This document shows, piece after piece, positions 14,331 through 18,806 of a DNA stretch of 64,000 nucleotides (positions are counted from its first letter, which is position 1; each line of letters begins with the position of its first letter). Both the position numbers and the translations under genes were made by a program. Origin of the DNA: Pelosinus fermentans DSM 17108 (GTDB lineage: Bacteria; Bacillota; Negativicutes; DSM-13327); NCBI RefSeq assembly GCF_000271485.2, contig NZ_AKVN02000001.1, forward strand, positions 1 through 64,000, written 5' to 3'. The notes under the pieces were generated by a model. That model did not search any database. It saw only the letters and a program-made list of their open reading frames with translations, and was not told the DNA's origin.

Positions 14331-16127
14331 TCAAGTACGATACTGATTGATATCTTGCCCAAAATGCTGGATTACAACCTTAAATTCACCAATTTTCTCC
14401 ATCATATCTACAAGCTTGTCATTATAAATCTGAACTGACGCACTGACTTCCTGACTCGCTGCCGAATTCTCCTGGGAAATTGCTGCCAAGGACTCAATTT
14501 TACCATACACCTGTCCAAGTCCAGTCATCTCATACTCCAATTTCCCAATCATCTCTACAATATTCGTAGCGACATTCTGTACATTACCTACATGGCGGCT
14601 ATTACTAGCTACTACCTCATTGAGCTGATGACTTTCCACTGCCAGTACATCATATTCTTCCTCAATCATCGATACCACACCACTAATAATCTCCATTAAA
14701 ATCTTAAGATCACTGGTAATACTATCCGAATGATGATGAGACTGCTCTGCTAATTTGCGTACTTCTTCTGCTACAACGGCAAAACCTCTGCCCTGCTCAC
14801 CGGCCCGCGCTGCTTCAATCGCAGCATTGAGGGCCAATAGGTTGGTCTGTCCTGCAATGGCTGCCACCATTCCTGTAATTTCCGTAATTTTAGCAGCTTG
14901 GGACTGCAGGTTATTAGCCGACTCTTTCACCTCAGCGAATTTCTCCAGACTATGCTGCAATTTAGATCCCGATGTCTCTACCTCTCGAAAACCTTGATTA
15001 ATTTCCGATACGGCGGCTTCCAGTTGTATTTTGTTGTGATTCTGCTCTACGACAAAGGTTTTTAACGTCTCTAAATTACCACTTAAAATACCAACTGCCT
15101 CAGTAGTCTCAATCGCCTGATTGCCAGCAGCAGTTGCTACATCATACACCACACCGGAAATACCCCGTGAAGTATCCTTCATTTCATCAGCTAACACATT
15201 AAAGGTATCCGCATATTTATTCATTTCATCGCCAGTACCTTTGAATCCTACAAACTCACGCTTTAATCGTTTTTTATACAAAGACAGGCCTTGCATAATA
15301 CCTTCGAACTCATCACCAGTATAAAGATTGGTTTCATGAAAATACTCGCGCTCCTGCATATTTTGGAGTTCTTCATGGATCGCAGCAAAAGGTGTTAACA
15401 AAAGGGAAGATACAATCCCTGCAATCCCCCCGCTAACCACTGCTGACCATAAGGGAACGGAAAAGCCAAGCAAAGCTAATATCCCATCTGCTGCTGCAGT
15501 CATGAGAGCAACCGCTACGCCGATCTTAACGGGCAATTTTTTGATAAAACCAAAAGATAGCAGCTGATTCATACGATATTTTTTATTATATGTAATAGGT
15601 TTGGAGAACCGAATTTTTAGTTTTACATGCTCAGAGGACTTTTCCAAGACTTCTGCCTTAATCTCTTCCTTAAAATGCTCTGCACCACCGAGAAGAAGAC
15701 CATTGAGATAACCGAACATCCCTCGTTTGGACTTATAACTAAAAATTGCCTCATATTCTGAAATGGGTTCAATTAAAATCTCTGGCGGATTAGCACCAGG
15801 AATTCGTTGTACAACTACTACATGCACATCATACATGGATCTAAGAAAAGAATACAAGGTTTCCTGTTGAAAAAAAGCTGGATAAACAGCTAAGAAAGCT
15901 CTAACGTTATCTTTCCCAATGGTTAGCCAAATGTCATCCTCTGATTTGCCTAAGGAAGTCGCCAAAGAGGTTATAAACTTTTTGACCCCATTGTCCTCAA
16001 CGTCTTCTGTTGGACCAACAATACGATCCTTCGCCCATCCTGCACTCTCCATTGCTTTGTTGACCAAGTCCTGCCCCCACGCATTACGGGCAGTACTGAC
16101 CCAAGTCGCAACAACTGTTCCCTTCAT
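14331..16127 (-). CDS. H-NOX (haem gas-sensor) methyl-accepting chemotaxis protein
   Basis: 598 residues from ATG 16127 (GGAG 8 nt upstream). Residues 1-~185 are an H-NOX domain: proximal haem ligand His102 (MYDVH), propionate motif Y131-S133-R135 (YKSKR), and Pro115. W9, N74 and Y140, the distal hydrogen-bond set of the O2-binding Thermoanaerobacter H-NOX, all fall at the same numbers. Two membrane segments follow (~203-250), then a HAMP-like linker and an MCP signalling domain with the tip [20 protein letters not shown] (~436). It should sense a diatomic gas in the cytoplasm, O2 more likely than NO only, and signal to CheA. It is monocistronic, with a terminator after it. Confidence 0.93.
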
Positions 16128-16292
16128 TCCTATCACTCCAATTTAAATGTGTAACAATATTTTTTCTACATTGTATCGTGATGTTGTATATAGCATTTCG
16201 CCATATTTTTACAAAATCCTGCCAGTTTAAAATGATTATCCATACCAGCTAGGATAGAGGATTGCTATCTTTTAATAAATAGATGGTTAAAC

Positions 16293-16372: not shown

Positions 16373-17038
16373 ATGACAATACCATTAGCAAGCATACCCT
16401 TTCTCAACAAAAAAATTAAATTCCCCGTAACACCCCACATACCTGGCGGATTAACTACCGCTGCTCAACTTAGGCAAATTGCCGATATCGCTGATAAATA
16501 TAATGGATCATTAAAGATCGTGGGAAATACGATTACAATTATAGGACTTAACCTTGCAGATGGAGAAAAAGCCATAGACGAACTTGGCTGCCAAGGTGAA
16601 TCCTTCATTGCAAAACAAGTACGTGCCGTTGCTTTCTGTCCTGGAAAACCTGACTGTCCTAGAGCGCTGCAAGATAGTACAGGCTTAGGTCTTACCTTAG
16701 ACAAAGAATTCTTCGGTCAAGAATTGCCCAGTAAACTGCGCATTGGTGTCAGCGGCTGCCCAAATTGCTGCATTGAACCATTTGTGAAAGATATTGGCAT
16801 GTATGGCACAGCCAAAGGATATACGTTAGTAGTTGGCGGCAACTCAGGCTTTTCTGCGCAAATTGCAACCCCTGTCGCCGAAAAGGTACCTGCTGATGAG
16901 ATTGCGTCTATCGTGAACAGCATATTGACTTACTTCCGCCAGCATGGAAAAAGCAAAGAACGCTTAGGACAGGCTATTGAAAGGCTCGGCTGGGATCACT
17001 TTTTACAAGAAACAATACCAGAGAATTATCGGAAATAA
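16373..17038 (+). CDS. small sirohaem [4Fe-4S] nitrite/sulfite reductase-like protein
   Basis: 221 residues, ATG after AAGGAGGATCTTTC. An N-terminal ferredoxin-like half-domain (~18-75) precedes a sirohaem/[4Fe-4S] domain with C89-X5-C95 (CPGKPDC) and C129-X3-C133 (SGCPNCC), the cluster pattern of nitrite and sulfite reductases. It is much shorter than assimilatory enzymes (500-600 aa, two repeats) and resembles the small single-repeat proteins of anaerobes. It may reduce sulfite or nitrite or act in sirohaem-linked electron transfer; the substrate cannot be read from sequence. It stands alone, behind a CRP/FNR operator, with repeat DNA directly downstream. Confidence 0.85.
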   Translation: MTIPLASIPFLNKKIKFPVTPHIPGGLTTAAQLRQIADIADKYNGSLKIVGNTITIIGLNLADGEKAIDELGCQGESFIAKQVRAVAFCPGKPDCPRALQDSTGLGLTLDKEFFGQELPSKLRIGVSGCPNCCIEPFVKDIGMYGTAKGYTLVVGGNSGFSAQIATPVAEKVPADEIASIVNSILTYFRQHGKSKERLGQAIERLGWDHFLQETIPENYRK

Positions 17039-17048
17039 TAAAAACATG

Positions 17049-17140
17049 AACCGCGAAGATGCGAAGAAATGCAAAGAACACGAAGAAGGGATATCCTCCA
17101 ATCTTCGTGTTCTTCATTACCTTCGCGATGCATTATTCAA
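17049..17140. repeat. imperfect palindrome, CACGAAG family (copy 2)
   Basis: CGCGAAG (17052-17058) and AAAGAACACGAAGA answer TCTTCGTGTTCTT (17102-17114) and CTTCGCG (17121-17127). The element starts about 10 nt after the reductase stop codon and may act as its terminator. Confidence 0.75.
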
Positions 17141-17193: not shown

Positions 17194-17291
17194 GAACCAC
17201 AAAGACGCAAAGGACACAAAGGGTTCTATTTCTAATTTATTTTGTGTACTCCTTTGTGTGCCGCATCAGCGGCATTGTGCCTTTGTGGTTC
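17194..17291. repeat. imperfect palindrome, CACAAAG family (copy 3)
   Basis: The ends GAACCACAAAG (17194-17204) and CTTTGTGGTTC (17281-17291) are exact complements. Inner CAAAGGACACAAAG pairs with CTTTGTGT and flanking sequence. A small hairpin GCCGC-ATCA-GCGGC is embedded in the right arm, matching a similar insert in copy 4. Confidence 0.8.
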
Positions 17292-17343
17292 ATAATTACT
17301 TATATTTTTTCACTTACAAAACTTTTAAATTCTTATATAACAA

Positions 17344-17466
17344 AAAAATCCCGCTTTCGCGAGAATACCTGTAGTACTATATAAAAATTCGGGGCAACGG
17401 AGTTCCCCCAAGATTATCTCAGCATCCACCCCAACACTAAGTAATCATTAACTCCGCTGCTTCATT
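17344..17466 (-). ncRNA. candidate structured ncRNA with intrinsic terminator
   Basis: On the minus strand GCAGCGGAGTT (17450-17460) pairs with AACTCCGTTGC (17394-17404) to form an 11-bp closing stem with one G-U. Inside, GATTACTTAG (17437-17446) pairs with CTGAGATAATC (17412-17422). After the closing stem a terminator hairpin TCTCGC-GAAA-GCGGGA (17349-17364) is followed by seven T. A -10-like TAGAAT lies just upstream (about 17470). No gene follows on this strand, so it is not a leader for a downstream gene. It could be a 3' UTR product of the HD-GYP mRNA. The RNA family is not recognised. Confidence 0.5.
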
Positions 17467-17537
17467 ATCTATTCTACCACAGTTTTCATAACTATAAAAG
17501 TGGGAATAGCCAATCTTTTAGAAAAACTTTATCTTTT

Positions 17538-18767
17538 TTAAGCATGAATCTTTATTTCCACCATATTATATACACATTCCAGATTATCAAATAAGTTTTT
17601 CACAATTCTTTTATCAATTTTATTGTGCTTCACCATAGTATACATAATCCTTTTCACTTCACTGGACGACAATAAACTGCGATACGAACGCTCTTCTGTT
17701 AACGCTGAAAAGATATCTGCTACCGCAACAATGCGTGACCCCATTTTAAGATGATCTTCTTGCACGCGAAAAGGGTAGCCCACACCGTCTAATGTCTCAT
17801 GATGATAAGCCGCCCATTCAGCGATGACTTCAAATTCATCGATTTGTTCTAATATCCGATAGGTGTAATATGCATGCTGCTTAATGATTTCAAATTCTCC
17901 AGGAACTAAATTCTCTGATTTCTCCAATATTTTCTTGGGTACAGCTAACTTTCCTAAATCATGAAGTAAACCTGCAATTTGCATGGCCTTGCATTCATCT
18001 TTGCTATAGCCTTCCAGGGCTGCTAAATAAGACGAAACCATCGCTACATTTCGTGAATGGGCACCTGTAAAGGAACTCGTCTGATCAATGATCTTAGCAA
18101 AAATTTCTGCAATATCAAGTATATCATCCACATTAAAACGTATCTGACCATATTGATTCATATGATCAAAAAAGCGCTGAGCATAGGCTGCATCTGCCAG
18201 ATCCAGCCAAAAACTTTCTTGCTGCGAGCAAGTCTGAAGAGCCGCTATTACCTCAGGATCAAAATAAATCCCGGTTAAACTTTCCAGTCTGGATAAAACA
18301 CTATCTTTTTGGCCCAAAATATATTTATCATCATCAATCAATACATCCAAACGATCCGCTACGTTTATAATCCGGCTGATCAAAGGTATCTGGCTCCCTG
18401 ATAATCCCGAGGGACTGGAGCCATCATAAAAATCATGATGATGGCGAATGGGTACCGCTAACATACCTAAGATTGGTGAATCTTTTAATAAACGATATCC
18501 AATTTCAGCATGATCATAAATGGTGTCCTCTACTTCAAAAGTACGCAGCTTCACTCGTTCATCCCAATTTGCTGCTGCCCCTAAATCATGAAGCAAGGCT
18601 GTATATACTAAAATCTGATGCTGCCAGTCCTTCATATTCATAGCCCTGCCAATCCGGCTGCTGATCATCGCCGTGCGCCAGTGATGATGGGATAATCCTC
18701 CGTTGGACAATTCTAAGGCTAAGGATAGGGCACGAAATAAATTAATGGGATGGATATTATATACCAT
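17538..18767 (-). CDS. tandem HD / HD-GYP phosphodiesterase
   Basis: 409 residues. ATG 18767 (MVYNIHPINLF) sits 7 nt after GGGAGG; the ATG two codons upstream is too close to that site. An N-terminal HD domain carries LHDLGA (~62) and RHHHDFYDG (~108). A C-terminal HD-GYP domain carries HSRNVAM (~235), LLHDLGKLAVP (~262) and YHHETLDGVGYP (~321). HD-GYP domains hydrolyse cyclic di-GMP or related dinucleotides through a metal centre. No sensor or receiver domain or membrane segment is seen, so it is a soluble enzyme. In the first domain the GYP part is replaced by a shorter motif. Confidence 0.9.
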   Translation of the reverse strand: MVYNIHPINLFRALSLALELSNGGLSHHHWRTAMISSRIGRAMNMKDWQHQILVYTALLHDLGAAANWDERVKLRTFEVEDTIYDHAEIGYRLLKDSPILGMLAVPIRHHHDFYDGSSPSGLSGSQIPLISRIINVADRLDVLIDDDKYILGQKDSVLSRLESLTGIYFDPEVIAALQTCSQQESFWLDLADAAYAQRFFDHMNQYGQIRFNVDDILDIAEIFAKIIDQTSSFTGAHSRNVAMVSSYLAALEGYSKDECKAMQIAGLLHDLGKLAVPKKILEKSENLVPGEFEIIKQHAYYTYRILEQIDEFEVIAEWAAYHHETLDGVGYPFRVQEDHLKMGSRIVAVADIFSALTEERSYRSLLSSSEVKRIMYTMVKHNKIDKRIVKNLFDNLECVYNMVEIKIHA

Positions 18768-18806
18768 CTCCATCCCTCCCTTTCTATGATGTTTTATCCT
18801 GGTGAT

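Follow-up and report, generated by a model that had tools for sequence, protein, structure and literature searches.

The first 64,000 nucleotides of contig NZ_AKVN02000001.1 of Pelosinus fermentans DSM 17108 (the window) contain an intergenic region that the initial annotation had read, from the sequence, as a candidate novel non-coding RNA on the minus strand. Does this locus hold an RNA gene in its own right, how far is it conserved, and what might its product do? The locus is bounded on one side by the 3' end of a gene for an HD-domain (HD-GYP-like) protein at 17538-18773, whose stop codon is about 75 nt before the small RNA, and on the other by a convergent gene with a nitrite/sulfite reductase domain (NIR_SIR; 16373-17038).

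The locus and its predicted fold

The minus strand folds at -40 kcal/mol (z -3.84), a value that none of 200 shuffled sequences equalled, and the plus strand folds less well (z -2.33). An 11-bp stem (P1) encloses a nested 13-bp stem with a bulged A (P2), and these are followed by a linker, a 6-bp terminator hairpin and a run of seven T (Table 1). The coordinates in the initial annotation were correct to within a few bases: the two arms of its closing stem pair over all 11 bp, and the nested inner stem is present, although with 13 pairs and one bulged A rather than the 9-10 bp proposed. The terminator hairpin and its seven T also stand, but the description of the loop as GNRA-like carries no weight, because the GAAA is not conserved and relatives have GGAA, GTAG, ATAA or ATTA in its place. 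As had been claimed, a TAGAAT box precedes the RNA; it has a TG before it and is kept in relatives. No gene follows closely on the same strand; the next one (14331-16136) starts about 1.2 kb away, with the convergent NIR_SIR gene in between. A promoter scan of the window locus alone gave a chance-level result (1 found, 1.0 expected), and a terminator scan found 1 against 0.2 expected in shuffles. Directly downstream of the RNA there are two palindromic intergenic repeats, at 17074-17114 (AACCACAAAG...) and 17194-17291 (AAGAACACGAAG...), and the stretch containing both differs in relatives.

Table 1. Positions in the window of the predicted RNA and of its parts
Feature	Position	Strand	Basis or remark
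Predicted small RNA, about 120 nt	17342..17464	-	5' end from -10 box (+/-2 nt); 3' end is the T run
-10 box TAGAAT, TG before (extended -10)	17471..17476	-	conserved in relatives
Weak -35-like TTTATA, spacer 16	17493..17498	-	promoter scan; T-rich stretch conserved
P1 5' arm GCAGCGGAGUU	17450..17460	-	fold, alignment, covariation
P2 5' arm	17434..17446	-	fold, covariation
P2 loop, G-rich (UGGGGUGG)	17426..17433	-	alignment
P2 3' arm, one bulged A	17412..17425	-	fold, covariation
J2/1 UUGGGGG, G-rich side of internal loop; GG invariant among homologues	17405..17411	-	
P1 3' arm AACUCCGUUGC	17394..17404	-	fold, alignment, covariation
Tail CCCGAAU; NCG conserved among homologues	17387..17393	-	alignment
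Terminator hairpin UCUCGCGAAAGCGGGA	17349..17364	-	terminator scan
Run of seven T	17342..17348	-	sequence, terminator scan

The initial annotation could not match the RNA to 6S, SRP, T-box or a riboswitch class, and this agrees with our searches: at the gathering threshold Rfam 15 had no family in the window, and below it the locus and six relatives gave nothing plausible, the matches being at chance level and far under the threshold. The RNA resembles 6S RNA (RF00013) in having a closing stem, an internal loop, a terminal hairpin and a free-standing gene, but it is much shorter and does not match the 6S model. It was rejected as a 6S RNA, RF00013 copies being located elsewhere in all 26 genomes searched and none at the RNA locus. 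The window's own genome has three RF00013 matches over the cut-off (contig 1, near 2708398, 2774908 and 2777002), and several relatives carry 2-4. A small protein-coding gene was also rejected, as frames of at least 15 codons differ between the homologues and are absent in most. We found no report of the RNA in the open-licence literature on Pelosinus, Sporomusa or Negativicutes small RNAs and riboswitches. Two papers describe other RNA motifs of this class (PMC6429828, PMC8632094), among them the class-limited gltD and ldh2 leader motifs (PMC8632094). Like the new RNA these are structured RNAs restricted to Negativicutes, but as described there they lie upstream of fixed genes, whereas the new RNA has no fixed neighbour.

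Distribution and conservation of the RNA

A search with the DNA sequence found one copy in each of the ten genomes searched from the window's order (one family, two genera). In this family the mean pairwise identity is 91% for the core, but it falls to 67% in the sequence before the -10 box and to 54% past the terminator. A covariance model of these ten sequences (R1) matched 21 of 250 class genomes. Two of the matches (L037 and L039) were judged on inspection to be chance, since they lack the P1 sequence; they were not recovered at E 0.001 by a second model (R2) built on 22 sequences. With R2, the RNA was found in 27 of 380 Negativicutes genomes, always as a single copy, in seven families and 8 of 102 genera, and there were no matches in the remaining 298 genomes of the phylum sample. 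When 28 non-carriers were searched with a relaxed cut-off, ten had weak matches (E 0.02-0.5), none with the P1 motif, and these were not counted. A pattern scan of the GTDB genome set returned 15 stretches, eight of which are real as judged by promoter and fold; the carriers among them include Sporomusa ovata DSM 2662, S. acidovorans, Sporomusa sp. KB1 and Propionispora sp. 2/2-37. The other seven, in unrelated taxa and by inspection devoid of promoter and hairpin, were set aside as chance. As 353 of the 380 class genomes have no detectable copy, the RNA is not essential to the class.

Alignment, fold and promoter were compared in 21 homologues, the other six of the 27 loci having cores identical to one of these; two of the 21 (L020 and L022) share a core, which leaves 20 distinct cores. 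P1 is the most conserved part of the RNA, and its arms (GCARCGGAG...CUCCGUUGY) occur in all 27 homologues; the GG of J2/1 and the NCG after P1 rank with both arms as the best conserved elements. Because its sequence is near-invariant, P1 yields almost no covariation. No two-sided changes occur in its outer nine pairs, and only its inner end alternates, between U-A, U-G and C-G. P2 is different: its sequence varies between families, but the hairpin is formed in nearly all homologues. Thus, of the two stems that the initial annotation had proposed to test for covariation, P2 covaries and P1, apart from its inner end, hardly does so. In 18 of 21 sequences the interior between the P1 arms reaches a fold z of at most -2.0; the exceptions are L036 (-1.99) and two sequences from families in which P2 is energetically weak, L031 (-1.54) and L038 (-0.02).

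A class-wide alignment analysed with RNAalifold recovered only P1, because P2 cannot be aligned by sequence between families, and the support for P2 is therefore given family by family. In family f23, using a structure-blind alignment of seven sequences, 6 of 12 P2 pairs have two-sided changes (9 cells versus 4.3 in shuffles, none of 500 being as high), and in the window genome's family, where the alignment was fitted to the model, they occur in two pairs of P2 and in one of P1 (5 cells versus 1.0, again with none of 500 shuffles as high); kinship of the sequences inflates tests of this kind. The single-stranded loops drift between families yet remain G-rich, and J2/1 is unpaired and rich in G in all 27 homologues, with 5-7 G in the ten nucleotides directly preceding the 3' arm of P1. 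A pseudoknot between the GGGG of the P2 loop and the CCCC after P1 would be possible in the window genome's family, but we do not claim it, as inspection indicated that in other families the tail does not follow the loop.

Promoter, terminator and gene neighbourhood

A TATAAT-like hexamer with at most one mismatch precedes P1 in all 21 homologues examined, at a distance of 8-10 nt in 19 of them and of 5 nt in two from family f10, often with a TG one base ahead. From the position of this box, the 5' end of the RNA would therefore be placed 1-3 nt before P1. At the other end, a simple scan recognised a terminator at 22 of 27 loci, and none at L034 and L057 (f9) or at L036, L061 and L062 (f10); where one was found, the RNA from P1 to the T run measures 106-123 nt.

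The flanking genes differ from family to family in the 15 loci inspected. Even within the window genome's family the gene directly upstream encodes an HD-GYP protein in five of ten genomes and CitXG in the other five, and the RNA is kept throughout. Pfam was run on one example of each of these two gene types and of the PQ-loop/SemiSWEET-like gene described below. Since its neighbours vary between families, the RNA is neither the leader nor the 3'UTR of a fixed gene. It has promoter and terminator features of its own and is conserved independently of what surrounds it, as expected of a free-standing RNA acting in trans, and it does not hold the constant position before one gene type that would mark a cis-acting riboswitch or leader. 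A NIR_SIR gene is found near the RNA in all ten genomes of the window genome's family, at two f9 loci and at one f23 locus (Pfam was run on three, the one in the window and those at L065 7219-8172 and L071 3607-4227), and this proximity in three families is perhaps old synteny.

Taken together, the conservation, the covariation of P2 and the retained promoter and terminator features support the initial reading as a novel non-coding RNA. Very probably the locus holds a genuine small RNA gene, one that stands on its own, is conserved, has no counterpart in Rfam and is confined to part of the Negativicutes.

Possible roles of the RNA

The explanation that we favour, with somewhat better than even confidence, is a vertically inherited, free-standing RNA gene whose product acts in trans, with P1 and the G-rich internal loop being recognised, likely by a protein. 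The gene would have been inherited vertically within part of the Negativicutes, and its transcription would begin 1-3 nt ahead of P1 and run to the terminator, so that a stable RNA would result with its 5' end locked in P1. The part recognised would most likely be the near-invariant P1 helix with the adjoining G-rich internal loop, and P2 would be a structural arm holding this part in shape. P1 is the most conserved element, and the absence of two-sided changes from its outer nine pairs points to reading of the sequence as such. We prefer recognition by a protein to antisense pairing because it is the helix that is conserved while the loops drift, and a seed would be expected in the single-stranded parts. 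The protein partner is nevertheless a guess, as alternative pairing, or a constraint at the level of the DNA, might equally have kept the helix invariant.

The main rival to recognition of the helix is a base-pairing trans sRNA that binds Hfq at its U tail and uses J2/1 and the G-rich loop of P2 to pair with C-rich mRNA sites, and this we regard as possible but rather doubtful. The RNA is like Hfq-associated trans sRNAs in its size, its own promoter, its U-tailed terminator and its intergenic position; a U run terminates most copies, and J2/1 is unpaired and G-rich in every homologue. However, it has an invariant closing helix in place of a conserved single-stranded seed, its exposed segments vary more than P1 between families, and no targets were found. 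Hfq is present in 22/22 carriers tested, but it does not discriminate them, because 16/17 non-carriers tested have it too. Genome G126 has five Hfq-domain matches, one with an internal stop. A scan of six genomes for exact complements of J2/1 gave 63 sites, a count that includes self matches, versus 29 for a reversed control pattern. In the 30 stretches inspected, from three genomes, these lie mostly in coding regions and on either strand, and only one intergenic site recurs (L130, L140); no conserved 5'UTR target set was seen in this single scan, which therefore speaks neither for nor against base pairing.

A small sponge that titrates CsrA through exposed GGA motifs appears improbable. The association with csrA, present in 22/22 carriers tested (of 27) and in 11/17 non-carriers (Fisher p 0.004, uncorrected for relatedness), agrees with such a role, as do the two or three unpaired GGA in several families, and in both respects the RNA is like sponges of the CsrB, RsmZ or McaS type. 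CsrA sponges, however, usually bear many GGA sites. The new RNA has few, and 5 of the 21 homologues examined (f9, f10) have none that is largely unpaired (at least two bases), so that several accessible sites are not found in every member; furthermore, the 11 non-carriers with csrA do without the RNA. It is still less probable that the RNA is an attenuator or riboswitch controlling whatever gene follows the terminator, orphaned in most genomes. A PQ-loop/SemiSWEET-like gene does begin right after the terminator in three of the ten genomes of the window genome's family, but it is missing there in the seven others, which keep the RNA, and the downstream genes of other families differ. In the three genomes with this gene (L007, L008 and L010, in G006, G008 and G002 respectively) there is little room for a promoter after the terminator. 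Hardly credible is a 3'UTR element, or an RNA derived from the 3'UTR, of the HD-GYP gene: the stop codon is close in the window, but in half of the ten relatives HD-GYP is not adjacent, other families have other neighbours, and the RNA has its own conserved -10 box. A link to sporulation was rejected as well. Four of 22 carriers tested, all in family f10, lack Spo0A_C, whereas it is present in 9 of 17 non-carriers; the RNA therefore does not go together with sporulation. The sponge, sporulation and riboswitch readings were thus weakened or not borne out.

Returning to the trans-acting RNA with a recognised P1 and G-rich loop, we tentatively suggest, at rather less than even confidence, an undescribed ribonucleoprotein of the Negativicutes, in which a dedicated or co-opted protein would read GCARCGGAG/CUCCGUUGY and the G-rich loop. 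Its function might be regulatory or housekeeping, and several families would have retained it throughout their history. With a helix that does not vary, the identity of the partner is directly testable by pull-down. Negativicutes are a class of double-membraned Firmicutes, and a conserved single-copy RNA gene in seven of their families would offer a way into the RNA regulation of these acetogens and fermenters.
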